Below are positions 1,664 to 21,083 of a stretch of 64,000 bases of DNA, one piece after another. A model generated the notes under the pieces. That model saw only the letters and a list, made by a program, of their open reading frames with translations. It was not told the origin of the DNA and did not search any database. This stretch comes from Halobaculum gomorrense. Its GTDB lineage: Archaea; Halobacteriota; Halobacteria; Halobacteriales; Haloferacaceae. Position 1 is the first letter of the stretch, and each line of letters begins with the position of its first letter. The stretch lies in contig NZ_FQWV01000010.1 in NCBI RefSeq assembly GCF_900129775.1, forward strand, positions 1-64,000. The letters are read 5' to 3'. The position numbers and the translations under genes were made by a program.

Positions 1664-3367
1664 TCAGCCGTTCTGCCCGCCGTACCGCTCTTTCGTCGCC
1701 ACGCGGACCCGGGTCGGCGTCGTCGCGTTGCCCGCGGAGGCGTTCCCCGTCACCTCGCCGGCAAGCGCGAACACGGCACGGCCGTCGCGCACGAACGACA
1801 GCCCGTTCGCCGTCACCGTCTCGTTCTCACCGGGCAGCGGCGCGCGCACGCTTCTGTTACCGCCCTCGACGAGCAGGCCGAACCCGGACTCGGTCGGGAC
1901 GACCGAGACGTTCCTGCCTGCGATCTTCGGCTCCGCTTTCGACGCGTTCGACAGGAACGCGAGCGTCGTCTCGCCGCCGTGAGAGAGCGTCACCCGATAG
2001 GCCGGGGCGTCGCCGCCGACGGTCGTCCATCCGCGGCGAGTGACGGTGACCACCTCCCGCCAACCGACCCCGCCGACGACGACCCGCTGGCGACCGGCGA
2101 ACGCGAGGCGACCCTTCGAGACCGCGGTGGTCCAGACGCTCCGGTCGGGGTTGCGGACGACGACGCCGGAGGCCGTGACGCTGGTCGTTTCGCCGAACGC
2201 CTTCACGTCGATCACCGACACCATCCCGTTTTCGACACCCTCGGCGTAGGTGACGCTGTAGCCACGGACCTCGACCGGGTCGCCGGGCAGCGGCTCGTCG
2301 CCGACGGCGACGAGGTTCACCGCGACCGCCGGCCCCGACAGCGCCGCGAGGGCGACGAGCAGCACCGCCACTGAACCCCGGCGCGGCGTCAGGTTCCGCA
2401 GCGCCCCGCGGACGGTGTCGGCCACGGGGGCGTTCCGATCGACGGCAAGCGCCGCCACGAGCACCGCCGCGAGCGCGACGAGCACGAGCCCAATCCCGCG
2501 GAACAGGACGTACGTCTCGCCGCCGCGGTACCAGTACACCGCCCACAGCGACTGTTCGACGGCGACCAGCAGTGCGCCGACCGCGAGCCGCCGCGGCCGT
2601 GGGAGGTCGTCGCCGCGGGCGGCCGCGAGCCACGCCGCCGCGAGGACGCCGACGAGCAGCCCCAGCGCGTGGCCCTGGATGGCGATGTCGGCCCACCAGG
2701 GCGTGATGTACGCCGGGCGCCCCCCGGCCTCGACGACGGGCGAGGCGAGCGCGCGGTAGGTCGTCCAGAGCAGCCCAGACGCCGACAGCGCGACGACAGT
2801 CCCCAGCGGGTGGTAGACCAGCGCGGCGCCGACGAACGCGAACACGACGCCCGAGAAGCCGATCACGGGACCGAGCGCGAACGCGCCGGAAACGAGGCCG
2901 ACGGCGACCGTCGCCGCCGGGAACAGGAGGAACGCCCGGACGTAGGGATCGTCGCGGGACGACCCGAACGAGGAACTGCCACGCCGGCGTGGGAAGTGGC
3001 CGACCGCGTACTCCACCAGGGGCGCGACCGCGAGCGCCCCGAAGAGGTTGCCCAACAGGTGCCCGGGACCGGCGTGGGCGAACCCCGAGACGGCGACCCC
3101 GAGCGGCGCGAAGTACGACCACGCCCGAAACGGGATGACGACGGGGCTGTACCAGTGGTTTAGGCCGCCTTGGACGAACAGATACACCGCGAGCACGACC
3201 GCCGCCACGGTGAGCGTCCCCCACGGGACACCGAGGATCAGGCGGTGGCGAAGCGCCGGACCGCGGTCCGCGTTCGCGAGGCGATCCAGCGCGGCGACCG
3301 CGACCGTCGCGAGCACCGCGGCGGCGACAACCGCCGCGCGGGAGACGAGCGCGAGGTCGGAAGGCAC
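1664..3367 (-). CDS. Rhomboid-family intramembrane serine protease
   Basis: A polytopic membrane protease that would cleave transmembrane substrates within the bilayer. Rhomboid signatures are in order: HLLGN with the conserved His and Asn (about residues 103-106), GFSG with the nucleophilic Ser (about 172) and QGHALG with the catalytic His (about 233). About seven or more hydrophobic helices fill residues 10-330. The last roughly 220 residues, after the final helices, form a beta-rich domain with several N-glycosylation sequons that is probably outside the cell. I chose GTG at 3367 because GGAGGG lies just upstream; a GTG at 3391 would add eight residues. It lies downstream of the isochorismate synthase gene on the same strand, 67 bp away. 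Confidence 0.85.
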   Translation of the reverse strand: MPSDLALVSRAAVVAAAVLATVAVAALDRLANADRGPALRHRLILGVPWGTLTVAAVVLAVYLFVQGGLNHWYSPVVIPFRAWSYFAPLGVAVSGFAHAGPGHLLGNLFGALAVAPLVEYAVGHFPRRRGSSSFGSSRDDPYVRAFLLFPAATVAVGLVSGAFALGPVIGFSGVVFAFVGAALVYHPLGTVVALSASGLLWTTYRALASPVVEAGGRPAYITPWWADIAIQGHALGLLVGVLAAAWLAAARGDDLPRPRRLAVGALLVAVEQSLWAVYWYRGGETYVLFRGIGLVLVALAAVLVAALAVDRNAPVADTVRGALRNLTPRRGSVAVLLVALAALSGPAVAVNLVAVGDEPLPGDPVEVRGYSVTYAEGVENGMVSVIDVKAFGETTSVTASGVVVRNPDRSVWTTAVSKGRLAFAGRQRVVVGGVGWREVVTVTRRGWTTVGGDAPAYRVTLSHGGETTLAFLSNASKAEPKIAGRNVSVVPTESGFGLLVEGGNRSVRAPLPGENETVTANGLSFVRDGRAVFALAGEVTGNASAGNATTPTRVRVATKERYGGQNG

Positions 3368-3434: not shown

Positions 3435-4787
3435 TCAGTCTTCCCGCTCTAGTTCATCCATGATCGGCCGGACCTTCGGCTGGAGTTCCTCCCACTCGTC
3501 GGCGGGGTCGGAGTCGCCGACGATCCCGTTACCGGCGAACAGCGTCGCCTCCCGGCCGCCAGTGACGCCCGATCGGATGCCGACCGCGAACTCGCCGTCG
3601 CCGGCGGCGTCGAACCAGCCGACCGGTGAGGCGTACCAGCCGCGTTCAAACGTCTCGGTCTCCCGGATGGTCGCCAGCGCCAGATCGAGCGGGAGGCCGC
3701 CGACGGCGGGCGTCGGGTGCAGCGCCTCGACGAGTTCGAGCACGTGGGCGTCGCCGTCGAGGACCGCGGTGATCGGCGTCTGGAGGTGCTGGATGTTGGT
3801 GAGCTTCCGGACGCCCTGCTCGCCCTCGCCCACGGTGCCGAAGGCGTCCAACTGCTCGCAGATCGTGTCGACGACGAGGCGCTGTTCGTGCTGGAGCTTC
3901 TCCGACTCCAGCAGCGAGCGGGCGTGCTCGGCGTCGGCCTCGGGCGTGTCGCCGCGGGGCATCGATCCCGCCAGCGCCTCGGTCTCGACGACCTCGCCCT
4001 CGCGGCGGACGAGCCGCTCGGGCGGCGGGCCGAAGAAGCCCTTCCCGTCGGTCGGCTGGACGAGGAAGCGGTAGCACTCGGGGTAAGTGCGCCGCAGGCG
4101 GCCGAGCGTGCCAGGGATGTCGATCCCCTCGGCGAGGTCGACGCGCAGCGCCGTCGCCAGCACCGCTTTCCGGAGGTCGCCCTCGCGGATGCGGTCGATC
4201 ACGCTCGCGACCTGCGCTGTCCACTCCGCGCGGTCGACCAGCCACTCCGTGCCGACGACGCCCGGCTTCTCGCCGCGGGCGCGCATCATCGGCAGGTCGT
4301 CGAGGCGGTCCCGGGCCGCCGCCAGCGCGTCCGCGACGCCGGCGCCGTCGGCGTCGGGGCCGTAGCGCGTCACGGTGAGGTACGTGCCGTCGTCGACGCG
4401 AGTGAGCTGGACCGCCGGGAGGGTGAACGCGGCCGCGGGAAACCCCTCCCAGACGCCATCGGCGTCGTGGTCCCCGCCGAACGCGAGGCCGCCGAACACG
4501 CGCGGGCGTGTCGCTGCGGGGCCCTCGTGGTCGACCGCGGAGAACAGCGTCTCGGCGTCGCGCCGCAGCGCCTCGAACCGATCCGTCCCGTCGGCGGTGA
4601 GCCGCGCGGCCGCGCCGCCGCCGACCACCTCCAGCCCGTCCGGGGCCGCCCAGTGGACCCGGTGACGGTCCCCGTCCGCGAGGAACGACCCGAACGAGAC
4701 GTCCGACACCTCGCAACTCCGGCTCACGAGCGCCGCGTCCGCGTCGGGCGCGAGCGCGGTCCCGACCTCGCCGTCCGGCGGGTTCAT
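3435..4787 (-). CDS. menF: Isochorismate synthase (menaquinone pathway)
   Basis: Converts chorismate to isochorismate, the first committed step of menaquinone synthesis; haloarchaea use menaquinone as their respiratory quinone. The 450-residue protein has the chorismate-binding fold in its C-terminal two thirds: ALAGSMPRGDT (about residue 285), LHPTPAVGGLP and ERGWYASPVGWFD with the conserved Glu, and GNGIVGDSDPADEW near the C-terminus. The N-terminal 150 residues are the variable beta domain of EntC/MenF/PabB enzymes. PabB or TrpE was considered, but the ERGWYASPVG form is that of isochorismate synthases. The ATG at 4787 fits family length better than a 20-residue upstream extension. No other men genes are adjacent. 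Confidence 0.88.
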   Translation of the reverse strand: MNPPDGEVGTALAPDADAALVSRSCEVSDVSFGSFLADGDRHRVHWAAPDGLEVVGGGAAARLTADGTDRFEALRRDAETLFSAVDHEGPAATRPRVFGGLAFGGDHDADGVWEGFPAAAFTLPAVQLTRVDDGTYLTVTRYGPDADGAGVADALAAARDRLDDLPMMRARGEKPGVVGTEWLVDRAEWTAQVASVIDRIREGDLRKAVLATALRVDLAEGIDIPGTLGRLRRTYPECYRFLVQPTDGKGFFGPPPERLVRREGEVVETEALAGSMPRGDTPEADAEHARSLLESEKLQHEQRLVVDTICEQLDAFGTVGEGEQGVRKLTNIQHLQTPITAVLDGDAHVLELVEALHPTPAVGGLPLDLALATIRETETFERGWYASPVGWFDAAGDGEFAVGIRSGVTGGREATLFAGNGIVGDSDPADEWEELQPKVRPIMDELERED

Positions 4788-10935: not shown

Positions 10936-12210
10936 TCACTCCTCGAGGGCCACGCCTCCGACGATGTCCGCGTCGGCGGGCGACCGGGCGTCGAACGCCG
11001 TGACGAGCCGGTCCAAGCGCTCGGGGTCGTCCGCGGCCTCCAGCGGCGTCTCCCCCGTCCGTCCGTCGCCGTCGACGCCGAGGCGGTCGCAGACGCGGTC
11101 GGCCACCGTCTCGGCCATCACGCGGTGGGTCGTCAGCTTTCCGCCGACGATGGAGTAGAAGCCGGCGACGCCGTCGGCCCCGTGGTCCAGCAGGGTGAAC
11201 TCCCGGGAGATGCCCCGCGCCTCGCCCGTGCCCGGTTCGTCGGCCGTCGCCGCCGCCCGCCGCCGCTCGCCGGGGGCGTACAGCGGGCGCACGCCCCAGT
11301 AGTCGTCGAGGACGACCGCGTCCCGGAAGGCGGGCACCATCGCCGCGCACTCCTCGATGACTCGCTGCACCTCCTCGTCGCCGCGCTCGTACTCGTCGGG
11401 GTCGTCTACGACGACGCTTGTCGTCCCGAGCACGGTCCGGCCCGCGTGCGGTACCGCGATGTCGCCGTCCGAGGGGGACCGGGCGCGGTTGAGCACCGGT
11501 CCGACGCCGTCGTAGTCGACGCCGACCATCACCCCCTTCGTCGGCTGCATCGGCACGTTGACGCCCGCGAGCGCCGCACAGCCTTCGGCCCACGCGCCCG
11601 CGGCATTGACGACGACATCGGCGTCGACGTGCTCGCCGTCGACGGTCGCGCCCGTCACCGCGCCGTCCGAGACGCGGATGTCGGTCACCGGGGAGTGTGT
11701 CCGGATCGTCGCTCCGTGTCCGCGAGCGTCGGCGGCGAGCGCCGCCACCAGCCGCGAAGGGTAGATGACGCCGTCGGGAACGCGCATCGCCCGCGAGACG
11801 TCCGCCGAGAGGCCGGAAACCGCCTGGCGGGCGGCCGCGACCGGCACCTCCTCGGCGTCGATACCGACTTCGCGGCAGGCATCGCGCTTGCGCTCGAAGT
11901 AGTCGTCGTCGTCGCCCTCCAGCGAGACAAACAGACCGCCGGTGTCGGCGACGCACGCGCCCGCGATGTCGCGCAGCAGCTCGTTCTCCTCGATGCACTC
12001 GGCGGCCCCCGTCGGGTCCGACTCGGCGTAGCGCGCGCCCGAGTGGAGCACGCCGTGCGAGCGGCCCGTCGCCCCCGCCGACAGCCCCCCACGCTCGGCG
12101 AGCGTCACCGCGACGCCGCGCATCGCCAGGTCGCGTACGACGCCGGCGCCGGTCGCGCCGCCGCCGATCACCAGTACCTCCGGTTTGCCTCCGCCGTCGG
12201 ATCGGTTCAC
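10936..12210 (-). CDS. Short GlpA-like FAD-dependent glycerol-3-phosphate dehydrogenase paralogue
   Basis: A 424-residue FAD oxidoreductase of the glycerol-3-phosphate dehydrogenase (GlpA/GlpD) family. Seen: the FAD-binding VLVIGGGATGAGVVRDLA at residues 12-29, GATGRSHGVLHSGARYA with the conserved substrate-pocket residues (about 45-65), GGLFVSLEG and [10 protein letters not shown] (about 300). The C-terminal [2Fe-2S]/BFD and tail domains present in the 598-residue GlpA at 16551 are absent, so electrons cannot pass the same way. It may be a soluble or differently partnered paralogue, or an oxidase-type enzyme. It lies 169 bp downstream of the glpK operon on the same strand and may be read with it. 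Confidence 0.8.
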   Translation of the reverse strand: MNRSDGGGKPEVLVIGGGATGAGVVRDLAMRGVAVTLAERGGLSAGATGRSHGVLHSGARYAESDPTGAAECIEENELLRDIAGACVADTGGLFVSLEGDDDDYFERKRDACREVGIDAEEVPVAAARQAVSGLSADVSRAMRVPDGVIYPSRLVAALAADARGHGATIRTHSPVTDIRVSDGAVTGATVDGEHVDADVVVNAAGAWAEGCAALAGVNVPMQPTKGVMVGVDYDGVGPVLNRARSPSDGDIAVPHAGRTVLGTTSVVVDDPDEYERGDEEVQRVIEECAAMVPAFRDAVVLDDYWGVRPLYAPGERRRAAATADEPGTGEARGISREFTLLDHGADGVAGFYSIVGGKLTTHRVMAETVADRVCDRLGVDGDGRTGETPLEAADDPERLDRLVTAFDARSPADADIVGGVALEE

Positions 12211-12379: not shown

Positions 12380-13456
12380 TCAGAGGTAGCCCGCGTTGGG
12401 GAGGATCCCCAGCGCCGAGAGGATCACGAGGACCAGCATGGCGATGGCGATGGCCATCGCGGGCGGGTCGACGTGGGTCCCCGAGTGGGCGTACAGGAGC
12501 CGCTGGGTCACCTCGCCCAGCAGGCCGCTGACGACGCCGAAGACGCCCGCAGCAAGCAGTGCGACGACGCCCCCGGCCATCGGGTCGACGACGACTGCGC
12601 CGACGGCCCCGATGAGGGTGATGTGGTGCGTGACGGGGATCTTCTCGACGCCGAGCTGGAGAAACAGCAGGCTGATCGCCGAGATGGCGTACCCGAGGAA
12701 GATGCTCCCGGTCTGAAGCCAGATGTATCCCCCGAGGATCCCGCCGACGAGGCCGATCGTCGCGACGCCAGCCCACTCGTACTGGTGGGGGAGCCACGGC
12801 TCGGTCGCGAGCCGGTCGGGGTACAGCCCGCCGGGGTAGCCGCCGTCGGTCTCCGTCCGCTGTTTCCCGTCCTCGAACGGCGACATGTCGAGCAGGCTGC
12901 TCCCGGCCGCCTTCCCGAAGAGCGGGTAGCCGAACGCGAGGCGCGCGATCAGCGCCGTGAGCACGACCGACAGCGCGATCGTGTCGGTCGGCGTGCCGAT
13001 CGCGGCGCCGACCTGGTTGATCAACATCCCGAGGACGCCGAAGACGGCGCCGACCGCGAGGATGTCCGGCTGCGTGCCGAACGCGTACGTGATGTCCTTC
13101 CCGAAGTGGTACTCGGCGCCGTCCTCGGCGAACTCCGGGTACTTCTGGCCCGCGTACGCGGAGGCGGCGACGCCGCCCGCGAAGGCGATGTGCGGTCCGG
13201 TGACCGCGCCGAAGCCGATCACGCCGGTCACGCCGGCGGCGAGTTCACCGGCGTTGACGCCCGGAAGCGTCCCGATCTCGCGCTGGAGGATCGCCAGTCC
13301 CTCACCGAGGAAGACGACGAACCCCGTGAAGATGAACGCCGGCAGCGCGCCGATCGCGGCGCCGAACGCGCCGCCCGCCAGCGCCGTAATGAGCAGCAGC
13401 AGGAACGGCTCCCACTCCATCCCGATCAGGGGAACCTGAAGCAGTAGATCGTACAT
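12380..13456 (-). CDS. Multispanning membrane protein, candidate glycerol facilitator (haloarchaeal GlpX-like)
   Basis: A 358-residue protein with about eight to ten hydrophobic segments and Gly-rich helices (TALAGGAFGAAIGALPAF, GVTGVIGFGAVTGPHIAFAGG, AGGVVALLAAGVFGVVSGLLG). It has no aquaporin NPA motif. The gene starts 3 bp downstream of the glpK stop, so it is in the glpK operon. From memory, Haloferax volcanii has a homologously placed gene after glpK, named glpX and proposed as a glycerol facilitator; that transport role is inferred, not shown by sequence. This GlpX is unrelated to bacterial GlpX fructose-bisphosphatase. Confidence 0.75.
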   Translation of the reverse strand: MYDLLLQVPLIGMEWEPFLLLLITALAGGAFGAAIGALPAFIFTGFVVFLGEGLAILQREIGTLPGVNAGELAAGVTGVIGFGAVTGPHIAFAGGVAASAYAGQKYPEFAEDGAEYHFGKDITYAFGTQPDILAVGAVFGVLGMLINQVGAAIGTPTDTIALSVVLTALIARLAFGYPLFGKAAGSSLLDMSPFEDGKQRTETDGGYPGGLYPDRLATEPWLPHQYEWAGVATIGLVGGILGGYIWLQTGSIFLGYAISAISLLFLQLGVEKIPVTHHITLIGAVGAVVVDPMAGGVVALLAAGVFGVVSGLLGEVTQRLLYAHSGTHVDPPAMAIAIAMLVLVILSALGILPNAGYL

Positions 13457-13459
13457 GGA

Positions 13460-14992
13460 TTACTCCTCCGTGGCCCAGTTCAGCGAGCGTTCGACGGCGT
13501 CGTCCCACCGGTCGTACATCGCATCCGCGCCCGACGCGTCCATTTCGGGGGCGAACTCCCGGTCGACCTGCCAGTTCTCGCGCAGGTCGTCGACGGAGTC
13601 CCAGTAGCCGACCGCGAGGCCGGCCGCGTACGCGGAGCCGAGCGCGGTCGTCTCGTCGACCTCCGGGCGGGCGATCTCCGTCTGGATGATGTCGGACTGG
13701 AGCTGACACAGGAAGTTGTTCTTGACCGCGCCGCCGTCGACGCGCAGCGAGGTCGTCTCCACGCCGGAGTCGGCCTCCATCGCCTCGGCCACGTCGCGCG
13801 TCTGGTAGGCGATCGCCTCCAGCGTCGCCCTGACGATGTGCCCCTTTCGCGTCCCCCGAGTCATGCCGACGATCGTCCCGCGGGCGCGACCGTCCCAGTG
13901 CGGGGCGCCGAGGCCGGTGAACGCCGGCACCATGTAGACGCCGTCAGTGGAGTCGACCGACCGCGCCAACTCGGCCGTCTGTGCGGCGTTGTTGATCAGA
14001 TCGACGTCCTCCAGCCACTCGATCGCGGCGCCGGTGACGAAGATCGACCCCTCCAGCGCGTACTGGACGGGCTCGCCCGACAGCTGGAAGCCGATCGTCG
14101 TGAGGAGGCCGTGGTCGGACTCGACGGCCTCGTTGCCCGTGTTCATCAGATAAAACGACCCCGTGCCGTACGTGTTCTTCGCGTCGCCTTTGTCGAAGCA
14201 GGTCTGGCCGAACATCGCCGCCTGCTGGTCCCCGAGCGCCCCCGCTACGGGCACCGCTTCGCCGAGGAAGCCGTCCGGATCAGTGTGCCCGTAGAACGCC
14301 TCGTCCGACGAGGGCCGCACCTCCGGTACCATCTCTTCGGGCACGTCGAACTCCTCGAGTAGCTCGTCGTCCCACTCCATCTCGCGGATGTTGTACAGCA
14401 TCGTCCGCGAGGCGTTCGAGACGTCCGTGATGTGGTTGCCCGTGAGGTTGTAGATCAACCAACTGTCGATCGTCCCCATCAGGAGCTCGCCGTTCTCCGC
14501 GCGGTCGCGGACGTCCTCGCCGCGGGACGCCTGCAGCTTCAGCGGCTCCGCGTTGTCGAGGATCCACTCGGTCTTCGTGGCCGAGAAGTACGCGTCGCAC
14601 TCCAGGCCGGTCTTCCCGCGGATCCACTCGACCTTGTCCGCCGCCTGCAGTTCCTCGACCCGGTCGGTCGTCCGGCGATCCTGCCAGACGAGCGCGTTGT
14701 GGACGGGCTTGCCGGTCTCGGCGTCCCACACCACTGTCGTCTCGCGCTGGTTCGTGATTCCGAGCGCCTCCAACTGGGTCGCCTCGAGGTCCGCCTCCGC
14801 GAGTCCCGCCGTGACCACCTCCTGGGTGTTCTGCCAGATCTCCATGGGGTCGTGTTCGACCCACCCTGGCTCGGGGTAGATCTGCTCGTGTTTCTGGTAC
14901 GCGTTGGCGACCACCTGCCCGCCGTGGTCGAACACCATGAACCGCGTTCCGGTCGTTCCTTGGTCGATCGCGCCGACGTACGTGTCTTCCAT
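13460..14992 (-). CDS. glpK: Glycerol kinase
   Basis: Phosphorylates glycerol to sn-glycerol-3-phosphate with ATP, the entry step of haloarchaeal glycerol catabolism. The 510-residue FGGY-family protein has the phosphate-1 motif GAIDQGTTGTRFMVFD (residues 7-22), NQRETTVVWD (about 82), VWQDRRT, GTIDSWLIYNLTG (about 165), GDQQAAMFGQ (about 250) and LRVDGGAVKNNFL in the C-terminal ATP lobe (about 405). Length matches bacterial GlpK. The ATG at 14992 is followed by the family's N-terminus (METYVGAIDQGTT-like); a frame open 108 bp further upstream has no homology. It leads an operon with the membrane protein at 12380. The promoter carries a TATA box near 15058-15067. Confidence 0.95.
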   Translation of the reverse strand: MEDTYVGAIDQGTTGTRFMVFDHGGQVVANAYQKHEQIYPEPGWVEHDPMEIWQNTQEVVTAGLAEADLEATQLEALGITNQRETTVVWDAETGKPVHNALVWQDRRTTDRVEELQAADKVEWIRGKTGLECDAYFSATKTEWILDNAEPLKLQASRGEDVRDRAENGELLMGTIDSWLIYNLTGNHITDVSNASRTMLYNIREMEWDDELLEEFDVPEEMVPEVRPSSDEAFYGHTDPDGFLGEAVPVAGALGDQQAAMFGQTCFDKGDAKNTYGTGSFYLMNTGNEAVESDHGLLTTIGFQLSGEPVQYALEGSIFVTGAAIEWLEDVDLINNAAQTAELARSVDSTDGVYMVPAFTGLGAPHWDGRARGTIVGMTRGTRKGHIVRATLEAIAYQTRDVAEAMEADSGVETTSLRVDGGAVKNNFLCQLQSDIIQTEIARPEVDETTALGSAYAAGLAVGYWDSVDDLRENWQVDREFAPEMDASGADAMYDRWDDAVERSLNWATEE

Positions 14993-15049
14993 TCGTATGT
15001 CCTCCGTGCCGGGTCTCGCGCCAGCGAGATCCCCTGGGTACATCCAACA

Positions 15050-15080
15050 TAGTGAACTATTATAAACGTTACTAACGCAT
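15050..15080 (-). promoter_or_regulatory. glpK promoter with TATA box and imperfect inverted repeat
   Basis: On the minus strand the region reads GTTAGTAAC, then TTTATAATA (TATA box, about 15059-15067), then GTTCACTA. TAGTGAAC (15050-15057, plus strand) and GTTACTA (15068-15074) form an imperfect inverted repeat around the TATA box, a good place for a repressor. GTTCACTA also occurs upstream of glpA. From the TATA box, transcription should start near 15035, giving a leader of roughly 40 bases. Confidence 0.5.
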
Positions 15081-15224
15081 GGGGTACCTACAGTAAACAA
15101 TGGATCGACCGCATCCGATCACCGCCGTCCGCCCGGCGTCCGTGGGGCGAGAACACCCCCGAGCCGGCCGTTCGGAAACCGGGCCGAGTAAAACCCCCGC
15201 CCCCGTAGGCGGCGTACCGACCGC

Positions 15225-15262: not shown

Positions 15263-16447
15263 ATGGACATCGAGGACCGAATCGCACGTCGTCAGCGCAC
15301 CGGTGAGCGCCACCGCCTCGTTCTCGATGAGGACGCGTTGAGCCCGGTGTGGCACCCGGAGGAGCCGATCGGTCGTGGGCCGCTGATCGAGCGCCTGCTC
15401 GACTACTTCGACCCGGTGTTCGACGGGCGCGCGCCGCCGAACGGCTACCTGTACGGGCCGGGCGGAACGGGCAAGTCGGCCGTGACCGTGTCGCTCGTCG
15501 ACCGGCTCGCGGAGGTGCTCTCCTCGACGGGGGACGCGCTGTACACGACCACCCGCGGGGCCAGCGCTCCCGGCGTCTCGTTCGTCCGCGTGGATCTCCG
15601 GACAGCCGACTCGGCGTTCGAGTTCTCCCACGCGGTGCTGGACGCGCTGACGGCCGAGTCCGTCCCGCGTCGCGGCGTCGGCGCCGACGAACTCCACGAG
15701 CGCCTGGAGCGGCACGTGCGCGGGGCCGGCCCGGTCGTGGTCGTCGCCGACCACATGGGTGAGCCCGAGACCGTGGACGTGCCGACGGTGGCGAGGCGGC
15801 TGGGGGCCGTCGAGGGGACCTTCGCCTGGCTCGCCGTCGGCCGCGCCGACCCGGACGAGGTGGGCGTGCCCGACGACGCGGCGACCATCGAGGTGGAGCC
15901 CTACTCGCGCGCGACGCTCACCGACCTCGTCGCGGCCCGCGCGGACGCCGGCCTCGGACAGGGCGCGCTGGCGCACCGGTCCGTCCGGGGGCTCGCAGAG
16001 TGGGCCGAGGGCGACGCCGGCGTCGCGCTGTCGGCGCTCCTGGGGGCGGTGGAGGCGGCGTCCACCGACGGCGACGCCGGCACCACCCTCGACGAGGAGA
16101 CCGTCGAGGCCGGGATGGCGGCCGTGCCGTGGCCGTGCGTCCCCCTCGGGCGCGTGCTCGCACTCCCGACGAACCGGGTGCGGGCGCTGGCGTGCCTGGT
16201 CGAGCTCAACCCGGCCGACCGCGCGCCCGTGAGCGACTGTGCCGCCCGGATCGCCGACCGCGTCGACCTGACGACCTCGACGGTGGAGCGGTTCCTCTAC
16301 GAACTCGCGGAGGCCGGAATCGTCGAGCGCGTCCGCCTCGACGGCGTCGACGGGCCCGGACGGCCGCCGAGCCGCGTGGACCCGCGGTTCCCGACGCTGG
16401 CGTTCCGGCGGCTCGTCCGGCGCCGCGTGGACGAGGTCGCCGTCTGA
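15263..16447 (+). CDS. Cdc6/Orc1-like AAA ATPase with winged-helix domain
   Basis: A 394-residue protein laid out like archaeal Orc1/Cdc6: an N-terminal basic segment (RIARRQRTGERHRLV), an AAA domain with Walker A GPGGTGKSA (about residues 70-78), a lid region, and a C-terminal winged helix (about 315-394; LTTSTVERFLYELAEAGIVERV reads as a recognition helix). The Walker B strand VVVVADHMGEP has His where the catalytic Glu is expected, and the sensor-1 Asn is not obvious, so ATP hydrolysis may be impaired. It sits between divergent glpK and glpABC, 103 bp ahead of glpA. No origin-type repeat cluster is seen nearby. A role as a local regulator is inference; Cdc6-type paralogues of unknown function are common in haloarchaea. 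Confidence 0.75.
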   Translation: MDIEDRIARRQRTGERHRLVLDEDALSPVWHPEEPIGRGPLIERLLDYFDPVFDGRAPPNGYLYGPGGTGKSAVTVSLVDRLAEVLSSTGDALYTTTRGASAPGVSFVRVDLRTADSAFEFSHAVLDALTAESVPRRGVGADELHERLERHVRGAGPVVVVADHMGEPETVDVPTVARRLGAVEGTFAWLAVGRADPDEVGVPDDAATIEVEPYSRATLTDLVAARADAGLGQGALAHRSVRGLAEWAEGDAGVALSALLGAVEAASTDGDAGTTLDEETVEAGMAAVPWPCVPLGRVLALPTNRVRALACLVELNPADRAPVSDCAARIADRVDLTTSTVERFLYELAEAGIVERVRLDGVDGPGRPPSRVDPRFPTLAFRRLVRRRVDEVAV

Positions 16448-16479
16448 CGGCGGCCGGACCTTTCGACCCGACATTATCT

Positions 16480-16512
16480 ACGTTCACTAGGGGGTAATCG
16501 ATAACGTAATAC
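16480..16512 (+). promoter_or_regulatory. glpA promoter region
   Basis: ACGTTCACTA (16480-16489) is followed by an AT-rich GTAATCGATAACGTAATAC stretch (16494-16512) that is the best TATA candidate, about 45 bp before the glpA start at 16551. GTTCACTA is shared, in the same orientation relative to transcription, with the glpK promoter. A shared 8-mer alone is weak evidence. Confidence 0.4.
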
Positions 16513-16550: not shown

Positions 16551-18347
16551 ATGAGCGATCGGACGGAGGTGCTCGTCGTCGGCGGCGGGTCGACCGGCTG
16601 CGGCGTGGCCCGGGATCTGGCCACCCGCGGGGTCGACGTGACGCTCGTCGAACAGGGCAACCTCACACACGGGACGACGGGGCGGATGCACGGCCTCCTC
16701 CACAGCGGCGGGCGATACGCGGTCTCGGACCAGGCCAGCGCTCGGGAGTGTATCGAGGAGAACCGGGTGCTGCGCGACATCGCGAGCCACTGCGTCGAGC
16801 TGACCGGGGGGCTGTTCGTCAAGCGCCCCGAGGACACCGAGGAGTACTTCCAGGAGAAGCTGGCGGGCTGTCGCGAGTGCGGCATCCCCGCGGAGGTGCT
16901 CTCAGCCGAGGAGGCGCGGGAGGTCGAGCCGTTCCTCGCAGGCGACATCGACAAGGCGATCCGGGTGCCCGACGGCGCGGTCGACCCGTTCCGGCTGTGC
17001 GTCGCCAACGCGGCCGACGCAGAGGCCCACGGCGCGCGCATCGAGACGCACTCGCCGGTCACAGACGTGCTCGTCGAAGACGGCGCGGTCGTTGGCGTCG
17101 AGGTGACACACGAATCTGGAGCCGGAAAGCGCGTCCACGGCGTCGAGGGCGGCACCGAGGAGATCTACGCCGACCACGTCGTCAACGCGACGGGCGCGTG
17201 GGCCGGGCGCATCGGCGACATGGCCGGCGTCGACGTGGAGGTGCGACCGAGCAAGGGCGTGATGACCGTGATGAACGTCCGCGAGGTCGACACGGTGGTC
17301 AACCGGTGCAAGCCGAAGGGCGACGCCGACATCGTCGTCCCCCACGAGACCACCTGTATCCTCGGCACGACCGACGAGGAGGTCGAGGACCCGGAGGACT
17401 ACCCCGAGGAGGCGTGGGAGGTCGACCTCATGATCGAAGAGCTGTCGAAGCTCGTCCCGATGCTCGACGGCGCCCGCACGATCCGCTCGTACTGGGGCGT
17501 GCGCCCGCTGTACGAGCCGCCGGGCACGGGGACCGAGGACCCAACCGACATCACGCGGGACTTCTTCCTGCTGGATCACGCCGAGCGCGACGACCTACCG
17601 GGGATGACCTCCATCGTCGGCGGGAAGTTCACCACCTACCGGCTGATGGCTGAGCAGATCTCCGACCACGTCTGTGACCTCCTCGGCGTCGAGGCCGCGT
17701 GCACGACCGCCGACCGCCCGCTCCCCGGCAGCGAGGACTTCTCGGTGCTGCGCGACTACATGGACGAGTTCGGCCTGCGCTCGCCGGTCGGCCGCCGGAG
17801 CGTCCAGCGGCTGGGCTCCCGCGCCGACGAGGTGCTCGACACCGACGAGCCGAACCCCGTCGTCTGCCAGTGCGAGGCGGTCACCCGCGCGGAACTGCGG
17901 GACGCCATCGGGGGGTCGGGCTCGGACCTGAACGCGGTCCGCCTGCGCACCCGCGCGTCGATGGGCAACTGTCAGGGGGGGTTTTGCGCCCACCGGATGG
18001 CCAACGAGCTCCACGCGGGCGGCGACTTCGACCGACCGACCGTCGACGCCGCGCTCGACGAGCTGTGGCAGGAGCGCTGGAAGGGCCAGCGCCACGCGCT
18101 GTGGGGCGAACAGCTCTCGCAGGCGATGCTCAACCACCTCCTGCACGCGACGACGTTCAACCGCGACGGCGCCGCCCCGGAGGACTTCGCGGCGTTCGAC
18201 GCCGGGGAGTGCGGCGCGGGGTCGGCCGATCGCGACGCCGCCGACGCGAGCGGCGACGCGGACGACGCCGGCGACACCTCCGAGCGGACGGCCGCCGACG
18301 GCGGTGTCTCCGCCCGCGACTGCGGGGGTGATCGGGGTGGCGATTGA
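16551..18347 (+). CDS. glpA: Anaerobic-type glycerol-3-phosphate dehydrogenase subunit A
   Basis: Catalytic FAD subunit oxidising glycerol-3-phosphate to dihydroxyacetone phosphate. Seen in 598 residues: FAD site [18 protein letters not shown] (residues 6-23), [18 protein letters not shown] (about 43-60), [29 protein letters not shown] (about 310), and a C-terminal BFD-type [2Fe-2S] domain with CQCE (about 441) and GNCQGGFC (about 471-478). The last 50 residues are Asp/Ala-rich and disordered. The ATG at 16551 is preferred to a GTG 27 bp upstream. It overlaps glpB by 11 bp. Expected to pass electrons through GlpB/GlpC to menaquinone. Confidence 0.95.
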
Positions 18348-19689
18348 GTCCGACGTGGTCGTGATCGGCGGCGGCCTCGCCGGTGCGACGGCGGCGCTGT
18401 CGGCCGCCCGCGAGGGCGTCCACGTCCATTTGGTCTCTGCGAACGAGAGCACCCTCCGGCAGGCGAGCGGCCTGATCGACGCGCTCGGCTACGCCGTCGG
18501 ACACGCGGCGGAGAACGACGGAGAGGACGCGGGAGCGGGCTCGGGCGACGCCGACGCGGTGCCCGGCCCGCTGGCGGACCCGTTCGCGGTGATCGAGGAC
18601 CTCCCCGCGGACCACCCGTACCGCGTCGCCGGCGCGGACGCCCTCCGCGAGGGGCTGGCACTGTTCGACGACGCCGTCGGCGACCTGTACCGGGGCGGCC
18701 ACACCGACCGCAACGCGCTCGTCCCGACGACCTCGGGGCGCGCGAAGCCGACGGCCCGCTACCCGCAGAGCGTGGCCCCGGGACTCGCCAGCGACGGCCG
18801 TCCGATGCTTCTCGTGGGGTTCGAGGCCGACACCGAGTTCGACGCGCCGCTGGCGGCCGAGCGGCTCTCGGCCGCGGGCGTCCCGTTCGACGTGTCGGGC
18901 GCGACGGTCGAATTCGCCGGGGAGTACCGTGCGGACGCGGCTGTCACCCGGCTGGCGCACGCGCTCGAACGCGACGAGAGCGCGGCCTCCGGCCGCGGAA
19001 CGACCGCGGGGGAGGGGCGGACCACCCGGCAGCGACTCGCCGACCGGATCCGTCCGCACCTCGGCGACGCCGAGCGCGTGGGGATCCCGGCGATGCTGGG
19101 CGACAGTCACGTCGAGGAGGTGCGCGCGGACCTCTCCGAGCGCCTCGACGCCGAGGTGTTCGAGGTCCCAACCGGGCCGCCGAGCCTCCCGGGGATCCGC
19201 CTGGAGGATCGGCTGTTCGACGCGCTCGACTCCGCGGGCGTCTCGATGACGACCGGCACGCCCGTCGTCGACTTCGAGACGGGCGCGGACGGTCGGGTCG
19301 CATCGGTGACCATCGACCGCAACGGCGCACGCATCCCGTACGAGGCGGGAGCGTTCGTCCTCGCGACGGGCGGGCTGGTCGGGAAAGGACTCGACTCCGA
19401 CCGCGAGCGCGCGCACGAGGCGCTGTTCGGCTGTCACGTCCCGCAACCAGACGACCGGATGGCCTGGTCTGCGGGGGGCGCGTTCGCCGACCACGCGTTC
19501 GCGCGCTTCGGCGTGCGGCCCGACGACCGGATGCGGCCGCTCGACGTGGAGGGAACACCAGAGTACGCGAACCTGGCGGCTGCCGGCGGCGTCGTCGGCG
19601 GGGCGGACGTGGCGAGAGAGAAGTCGGCCAGCGGCGTCTCGCTGGCCACGGGGCTTGTCGCGGGCCGGACCGCGGCGGAGGAGGCATGA
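18337..19689 (+). CDS. glpB: Glycerol-3-phosphate dehydrogenase subunit GlpB
   Basis: A 450-residue flavoprotein subunit of the GlpABC complex. It opens with a nucleotide-binding [17 protein letters not shown] (about residues 7-23) and has [12 protein letters not shown] (about 42), typical of GlpB, and [14 protein letters not shown] near residue 345. The C-terminal part carries [16 protein letters not shown]. In E. coli GlpB is an FMN subunit linking GlpA to GlpC. I chose GTG at 18337, giving [12 protein letters not shown] and an 11-bp overlap with glpA; upstream alternatives at 18328 or 18304 are possible. Its stop overlaps the glpC start (ATGA). An Asp/Gly-rich insertion is present around residues 55-75. 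Confidence 0.92.
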
Positions 19690-21083
19690 GCGACACACAC
19701 GACACACACGACACTCACGAGGACTGCGGCTGCGACGGGGAGGCGAACCGATCGGCGGCGACCGACGGCGGCGCCGTCGCCGGGTCGACCGCCGGGAGCG
19801 AGGACGAATTCGAGCCGGTCGACGTGTTCGAGGGCTCGGAGATGGACCTCCGGCCCGGCGCCGACTCCTGCTACAAGTGCACCTCCTGTGACACCTCCTG
19901 TCCGGTCGCGGAGGTGGACGACTCCTTCCCCGGGCCGAAGTTCCAGGGCCCCGAACAGTGGCGCCTCAAGCGCAAGGAAGACACCGAGATCGACGACTCG
20001 ATCACCGGCTGCTCCAACTGCATGCGCTGTGACGGCGCCTGCCCTTCGGACGTGCCGCTGTCGCAGATGCACAACACCGCACGCGCGGAGTACGTCGAGA
20101 ACCAGCAGCCCACGCTCTCCCGGGAGTACCTCCGCAACCGCATCCTCGCGAACTACGGCACGCTCGCGGCGCTCGGGTCGAAAGTCCCTCGGCTCACGAA
20201 CGCCATCATGGGCAACTCCCTCGTGCAGAAGGTGAACGAGACGGTGCTCGGGATCACCGCCGAGCGCGACTTCCCGGAGTTCGCAGACCAGACGTTCCGC
20301 GGATGGTGGAAGGAGCGCGGCGGCCCGAAGGTCGAAAGCGAGGAGAAGCGGGTCGCCTACTTCCACGGCGACTACGCCAACTACAACACCGTCGAGGTGG
20401 CGAAGGCGCTCGTCCGGGTGTACGAGGCCTTCGGTTACGAGATCGCGGTGCCGGACCAGCGCTGCTCGGGCACGCCGATGTTCGCAAACGGGATGCTCGA
20501 CGACGCGCGGCGCTCCGCGGCGGTCAACGTCGAGAGCCTCGGCGAGATGATCGAGCAGGGGTACGACGTGGTCGCCTCCTGTACCTCCTGCTCGATGGCC
20601 CTTCGCCAGGAGTACCCCGAGCTGTTCGACTTCGAGGGCACCGAGACGGTCGCCGCGAACACCTACGACGCGCTGGAGTACCTCCTGATCAACGAGAACG
20701 TGATCGACCCGCTGAGCGAGGTCGACGCCGCCGACCACGATATCCCCGACTTCGCGTACCACGCGCCGTGTCACTCCCGAAATCAGGGGCTCGACCGGCA
20801 GGCGGTCGAGCTGTTCCGCTACCTCGACGGCGTCGACGTGGCGGACGTTGGCGACTCCTGCTCGGGGATCTCGGGGACCTACGGCTGGAAGGAGGAGAAG
20901 TACGAGTACTCCATGGAGATCGGCGAGGAGATGTTCGAGCACATGGAGCACGCCAACGGCGAGACCGGGATGACCGAGTGCCCGACCTGCTCGATGCAAA
21001 TGGAGCACGGCACCGGCTACGAGATCGACCACCCCCTTCAGGTGCTGGAGGCGGCGCTCGTCGACACCGACGTGACGATCTGA
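19686..21083 (+). CDS. glpC: Glycerol-3-phosphate dehydrogenase iron-sulfur subunit GlpC
   Basis: A 465-residue membrane-anchoring electron-transfer subunit. Two [4Fe-4S] ferredoxin motifs are visible: CYKCTSCDTSCPV (about residue 61) and CSNCMRCDGACP (about 108). Two CCG (heterodisulfide-reductase-type) modules follow: CTSCSMALRQEYP (about 298) with HAPCHSRNQG (about 358), and CPTCSMQMEHG (about 431). Electrons would go from GlpA/GlpB to menaquinone. The N-terminus is unusual: His/Asp/Thr repeats then DCGCDGE, with a 30-residue disordered stretch before the first cluster. Translational coupling to glpB (ATGA). An inverted repeat lies 31 bp after the stop. Confidence 0.94.
   Translation: MSDTHDTHDTHEDCGCDGEANRSAATDGGAVAGSTAGSEDEFEPVDVFEGSEMDLRPGADSCYKCTSCDTSCPVAEVDDSFPGPKFQGPEQWRLKRKEDTEIDDSITGCSNCMRCDGACPSDVPLSQMHNTARAEYVENQQPTLSREYLRNRILANYGTLAALGSKVPRLTNAIMGNSLVQKVNETVLGITAERDFPEFADQTFRGWWKERGGPKVESEEKRVAYFHGDYANYNTVEVAKALVRVYEAFGYEIAVPDQRCSGTPMFANGMLDDARRSAAVNVESLGEMIEQGYDVVASCTSCSMALRQEYPELFDFEGTETVAANTYDALEYLLINENVIDPLSEVDAADHDIPDFAYHAPCHSRNQGLDRQAVELFRYLDGVDVADVGDSCSGISGTYGWKEEKYEYSMEIGEEMFEHMEHANGETGMTECPTCSMQMEHGTGYEIDHPLQVLEAALVDTDVTI

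Follow-up and report, generated by a model that had tools for sequence, protein, structure and literature searches.

What a protein with the fold of the Orc1/Cdc6 replication initiators is doing between two glycerol operons is the question raised by this part of the window, by which we mean the whole 64,000-nt stretch of DNA that was analysed. We consider it quite probable, from comparative sequence analysis, that the open reading frame at 15263-16447 encodes a transcription regulator that is dedicated to the glycerol catabolism of Halobacteria and was derived from an Orc1/Cdc6 initiator. This supports, at the level of sequence, an earlier sequence-only reading of the gene product as a DNA-binding AAA regulator that does not cycle ATP and is fixed in a catabolic locus. 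The genes concerned are these:

12380..13456, minus strand: conserved multi-spanning membrane protein, downstream of glpK
13460..14992, minus strand: glpK, glycerol kinase, likely start ATG at 14992 (13460-15016 served as the search query)
15263..16447, plus strand: Orc1/Cdc6-fold regulator candidate, 394 aa, ATG at 15263, stop codon ending at 16447
16551..18347, plus strand: glpA, anaerobic glycerol-3-phosphate dehydrogenase subunit A, by family model
18304..19689, plus strand: glpB, from the longest ORF start
19686..21083, plus strand: glpC, from the ORF and locus comparison

The coordinates agree with the placement first described, between divergent glpK and glpABC and 103 bp from glpA: glpK is oriented divergently from the regulator ORF, and the glpA ATG at 16551 starts 103 bp after it. 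The start at 15263 opens a conserved N-terminus, MDIxxRIxRR. The membrane protein at 12380-13456 has no Pfam or NCBIfam match and probably forms one family with Haloquadratum HQ1732A, which has been proposed as a candidate for glycerol uptake (PMC5496347). Downstream of it lies a second, shorter GlpA-like flavoprotein of 424 aa (10936-12210, minus strand), which scores 426 bits to the GlpA model against a cut-off of 552.8 and has relatives in a minority of loci.

The Orc1/Cdc6 layout claimed for the protein, winged helix included, is borne out by structural comparison. Pfam matches comprise AAA_16 and a C-terminal HTH_IclR, and the score to the orc1/cdc6 model TIGR02928 is 66 bits, far below the cut-off of 181.3; the genome's own canonical Orc1 proteins reach 311-473 bits. 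An AlphaFold model built from 12 sequences (pLDDT 86.9, pTM 0.84) shows an AAA+ domain, a lid and a C-terminal winged helix arranged as in Orc1, and over nearly its full length it matches the DNA-bound Orc1 of A. pernix (2v1u_A, Z 23.0, 335 residues) and also the S. solfataricus Cdc6/Orc1 (2qby_A, Z 22.8, 329 residues). The one PHROGs match was weak and of unknown function, and in RefSeq plasmid-borne orthologues carry the plain name AAA family ATPase. The putative DNA-binding elements are the following:

16169..16396, plus strand: C-terminal winged helix, from Pfam, alignment and model
16274-16312, plus strand: recognition helix within the winged helix, TSTVERFLYELAE
16358-16396, plus strand: wing within the winged helix, GRPPSRVDPRFPT

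Across the orthologue alignment T340, R343 and Y346 of the winged helix are invariant, and the wing reads GRPPSRxEPRFP.

The ATPase motifs were aligned in 100 orthologues (the window protein and those of 99 loci), with four of this genome's canonical Orc1 proteins as reference:

15455..15481, plus strand: Walker A GPGGTGKSA, residues 65-73, by alignment
15545..15556, plus strand: family-specific TTTR, residues 95-98, by alignment, in a low-confidence loop of the model
15734..15754, plus strand: Walker B strand, which ends VVVADH and forms strand 158-165 in the model
16010..16030, plus strand: sensor-2 region GDAGVAL, residues 250-256, by alignment

The sequence-only reading had reported an atypical Walker B, with His where the Orc1/Cdc6 catalytic Glu should be, and this proves to be a fixed property of the family. 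Asp163 (codon 15749-15751) and His164 (codon 15752-15754) are invariant in 100/100 orthologues across class Halobacteria, Glu is found in none, and a misregistered alignment is thereby ruled out. Measured against the four canonical proteins, the sensor-1 Asn has become GR, the Arg-finger segment DPRV is missing, and the counterpart of the initiator-specific motif (ISM), which follows Walker B, is shortened; the canonical sensor-2 Arg is replaced as well, by His in 87/100 orthologues and by Gly in the window protein. The Walker A Lys is retained in 91/99 orthologues and is Thr in the other eight (L132, L133, L137, L139-L142 and L148), all of one family, f7, in a Natrialbaceae-type clade, which retain the rest of the P-loop together with near-perfect or perfect copies of the operator described below. 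By comparison, T95, T97 and R98 are kept in 99/100 rows (the remaining row is a gap) and R113 in 97, so that these positions are more conserved than the Walker A Lys. We infer that the fold of the AAA+ domain is kept and that a normal ATP cycle would be impossible, a reading strengthened both by the loss of the sensor-1 Asn, Arg finger and sensor-2 Arg and by the operators kept alongside natural K-to-T variants. The same K-to-T clade suggests that nucleotide binding is perhaps dispensable in part of the family.

Linkage to the glycerol genes holds far beyond the window. At a threshold of E <= 1e-40 an orthologue is present in 215 of 292 genomes of class Halobacteria, of which 252 have glpK; in a phylum-wide sample the matches listed all fall in the same order. 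Of 99 orthologue loci selected by homology alone, the fetched stretch includes glpK, the membrane protein or glpABC in 97; counted singly, glpK is found in 93 loci, glpA in 83 and the membrane protein in 88. The other two, L116 and L149, have none of these there. The linked loci show at least five gene orders. In one, that of the window, the regulator gene separates glpK from glpA; in others it closes the glpK operon or the glpABC operon, is transcribed divergently from glpA, or opens the glpK operon. Such persistence through repeated rearrangement indicates a functional tie and rules out a chance association, and the tie of homologues to glpK and glpABC on which the original proposal depended is thus confirmed. 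No recurrent DNA-binding family other than the regulator itself was found in the neighbourhoods of the 99 loci, nor does any of the other recurrent families listed look regulatory, and a linked HTH gene is therefore rejected as owner of the operator. These other neighbours, judged by eye, are a HAD-type phosphatase and two membrane proteins, a large oligosaccharyltransferase-like one and a DUF368-like one; their recurrence seems to reflect synteny shared within one clade.

The upstream regions of glpK and glpA have in common an inverted repeat, TTTACY-N17/18-RGTAAA, with half-site centres 23-24 bp apart. In the N17 form with at most one mismatch it occurs in 45/91 glpK and 29/82 glpA promoters; shuffled controls gave 0 and 1, respectively. 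Enrichment is limited to spacers of 17-18, with none at spacers of 8-16 in either promoter set, apart from an N22 register in glpA that derives from a tandem TAAARTAAAG; this tandem probably contains the glpA core promoter, since a similar AATAAAGTG persists there in genomes without the regulator gene. Across 33 whole genomes the exact pattern occurs 20 times, with 13 of these occurrences at glp promoters; the reversed pattern, taken as control, occurs four times. The geometry at glpK is strict. One copy, IR1, ends 1 bp upstream of the TATA box (TTTAT) in 22/24 cases, and in 37/42 the distance from the start of the TATA box to that of a second copy, IR2, which likely covers the transcription start, is 22 bp; where both are present their centres lie 52-52.5 bp apart in 7/9, and 30/91 glpK promoters have IR2 only. 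In the window the corresponding features are:

15059..15066, minus strand: glpK TATA box, TTTATAAT, 1 bp from IR1, which is the conserved spacing
15068..15097, unstranded: operator-like IR1 upstream of glpK, TTTACTGTAGGTACCCCATGCGTTAGTAAC on the minus strand, with an N18 spacer and one mismatch
16477..16505, unstranded: degenerate inverted repeat upstream of glpA, TCTACG-N17-GATAAC, with four mismatches

Sister species (L067, L068) carry better copies at the same position before glpA. The sequence-only reading had made no mention of the operator-like repeats at 15068-15097 and 16477-16505, which fall very close to the two positions, 15050 and 16480, that it had named for a test of binding.

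Presence of the operator follows presence of the gene. As control we took genomes with glpK that lack the regulator gene, none of which had been used in motif discovery. First counts, at two or fewer mismatches in the glpK promoter, were 89/111 with the gene and 3/37 without. A profile search revealed that G281 and G078 carry the gene after all, in G078 with an in-frame insertion, and both were moved to the gene-positive set, one helping and one hurting the association. The corrected counts are 90/113 against 2/35 (Fisher P about 1e-15), but genomes within a clade are not independent, and the fair count is that of nine within-genus contrasts, with a two-sided sign test P of 0.004. At one or no mismatch the counts are 64/113 against 1/35. 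Nine genera that contain both states are concordant and none is reversed (g1, g5, g30, g42, g55, g61, g62, g63 and g76): members with the gene have a site with at most two mismatches and members without it have at least three, the departures among gene-carriers being one of three in g61, with four mismatches, and three members of g5, with three or more. After correction genus g54 is all gene-positive with mixed sites, and genus g10 is uninformative. The two genomes with an operator and no gene are G301 and G137, of which G301 is explained by a contig break: its contig, 11.8 kb long, stops within glpC, just before the expected place of the gene. Conversely, G091 holds only a remnant, the first 115 regulator residues (L271, 1501-1842), and its glpK promoter has no operator, which is what decay would lead one to expect. 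The rule is not universal, as 23 of the 113 gene-carrying genomes, the Haloferax clade among them, have no recognisable glpK site.

In G107 and G029 the regulator gene is unlinked and glpK still has a site with one mismatch, from which the regulator would act in trans. Exact operators also turn up before other genes. One, in G107 (L244, near 3657-3685), precedes an operon for a second or alternative glycerol-3-phosphate-dehydrogenase-like flavoprotein. Another, in G304 (L248, near 3333-3361), precedes the gene of an ABC-transporter-type extracellular solute-binding protein, possibly part of an uptake system for glycerol or glycerol-3-phosphate.

The site is missing at both glpK and glpA in 9 of 92 loci, and five of these nine form one clade, with an altered recognition helix and a wing of RPATRPxPNFS. 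The start of its glpK, ATGTCAGGAGAAACT, identifies the clade as Haloferax (genus g49), for the glpK primer published for H. volcanii begins alike (PMC12366361). Operator and DNA-binding domain thus appear to have changed together, although one clade counts as one event. The Haloferax orthologues at L112, L119, L123, L131, L160 and L161 have the changed helix and wing and mostly no recognisable operator, and the glpK leaders of L123 and L160 hold a different inverted repeat, ACTCTC...GAGAGT. Locus-tag order and the match to the glpK primer indicate that the H. volcanii orthologue would be HVO_1537, which by that order adjoins the glycerol-3-phosphate dehydrogenase genes HVO_1538-1540.

Several other explanations of these observations have to be weighed. 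The fold itself would suit an active or relic initiator that lies beside the glp genes by chance, and HVO_1537, the presumed orthologue, has indeed been listed as the initiator orc15 (PMC2841640). The same list, however, gives orc15 no associated origin, all hydrolysis motifs are lost, and the association with glp genes is found in at least five gene orders. Furthermore, the absence of origin-recognition repeats noted earlier was upheld, as the ORB core TTCCASTGGAAAC, with as many as two mismatches allowed, has no match in the 64,000-nt window and six at this genome's canonical Orc1 locus, L164, which served as positive control. We therefore reject a replication-initiator role on the missing ORBs, the motif losses and the glp linkage together, and hold it to be highly improbable. 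That the protein is an ATPase switch, with hydrolysis persisting through His164 or another base in place of Glu, we consider improbable. Most members do retain the Walker A Lys and the Walker B Asp, but sensor-1, Arg finger and sensor-2 have gone too, and eight orthologues have near-perfect or perfect operators without the Walker A Lys. It is also unlikely that some unlinked transcription factor uses the inverted repeat as its operator, and that the Orc1-like protein is a partner with a different task, for instance sensing through the membrane protein, and is lost along with the regulon. Co-occurrence fits direct and indirect partners alike, and the half-site core TACT/AGTA resembles what we take to be the TrmB motif, with a different spacing. 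Against this, the Orc1-like gene is the sole recurrent DNA-binding gene at the loci, and loss of the operator tracks the changes of recognition helix and wing in the Haloferax clade. TrmB in particular is rejected as owner of the operator, the published TrmB study naming no glycerol kinase target.

Given that the protein is a regulator, its sign is less clear, and we lean moderately towards a repressor. Sites beside and downstream of TATA would interfere with the basal machinery, and the 30/91 glpK promoters with IR2 only also make repression more likely. An activator that recruits TBP/TFB from IR1 is possible, with a probability that we put well short of even. IR1 directly abuts the TATA box, and a site so placed suits an activator, as with GvpE. 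The known Orc1 regulator, Orc1-2, also activates its targets (PMC9738581). Activation is nevertheless hard to picture from the IR2-only promoters, where the site lies downstream of TATA over the likely start.

We therefore favour the following model of a dedicated repressor. The protein, probably a dimer, would use its winged helix to bind TTTACY-N17/18-RGTAAA in the promoters of glpK and glpA. The separation of IR1 and IR2 centres by about 52 bp amounts to five helical turns, and two dimers could share one face of the DNA around TATA, where occupied IR1 and IR2 would block TBP/TFB or the polymerase. A glycerol metabolite would relieve this repression, with the AAA+ domain acting not as a motor but as a ligand-set switch, ATP-bound or otherwise, that sets the DNA-binding state without hydrolysis. 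We offer as a speculative and rather doubtful extension that the rebuilt ATP pocket responds to glycerol-3-phosphate or dihydroxyacetone phosphate, both phosphorylated metabolites of glycerol; the residues of such a pocket in the K-to-T clade would be the invariant TxTR, R113 and D163-H164.

Full-length fold is shared with the archaeal Orc1/Cdc6 initiators (COG1474, TIGR02928), from which the regulator candidate differs in having no ORBs, Walker B Glu, sensor-1 Asn, Arg finger or sensor-2 Arg. Dedicated regulation of glp operons is familiar from bacterial DeoR-type GlpR, which like GylR has, as far as known, an architecture unrelated to that of the Orc1-like candidate. GylR is described in the same role of dedicated glp-operon regulator (PMC9732521). 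Transcription regulators derived from Orc1 are already known: Orc1-2 of Saccharolobus islandicus is a non-initiator Orc1 that regulates transcription in the DNA-damage response (PMC9738581). Like the candidate it combines an AAA+ domain with a winged helix, and it is no initiator and regulates promoters, as the candidate is predicted to do, but it keeps the Walker B Glu and the ISM, where the regulator family has no Glu and a shortened ISM region, and it targets the asymmetric ANTTTC (DDRE) at DNA damage and repair genes in place of a long palindrome at glycerol genes (PMC9738581). Orc1-2 requires hydrolysis to switch off; its Walker B mutant E154A, which parallels by engineering the DH found in nature, equals or exceeds wild type in DNA binding, locks the regulator on and is lethal (PMC9738581). 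By this analogy the locked E154A state seems to have been put to metabolic use in the present family.

Among the central-carbon regulators of the same haloarchaea, GlpR, GfcR, TrmB and TbsP (PMC12366361, PMC12853182), we found no report of any that switches on glycerol catabolism, and the mechanism of its activation is described as "not fully understood" (PMC12853182). Our literature search, which covered few subscription papers, found no publication linking an Orc1/Cdc6-like protein to glycerol genes, and a prior description is possible.

Haloarchaea that live in brines draw on glycerol as a main carbon source. The present analysis provides a specific candidate gene and operator for the control of its catabolism in much of class Halobacteria. 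It would also leave one gene fewer among the presumed replication initiators, orc15 in Haloferax by inference. Furthermore, the family offers a natural Orc1-type protein that seemingly works without ATP hydrolysis, in contrast to Saccharolobus Orc1-2, in which blocked hydrolysis is lethal, and its K-to-T clade is a natural experiment on the need for nucleotide binding. Finally, were the metabolite-pocket reading true, the AAA+ fold of a replication initiator would have become a one-component metabolite sensor.
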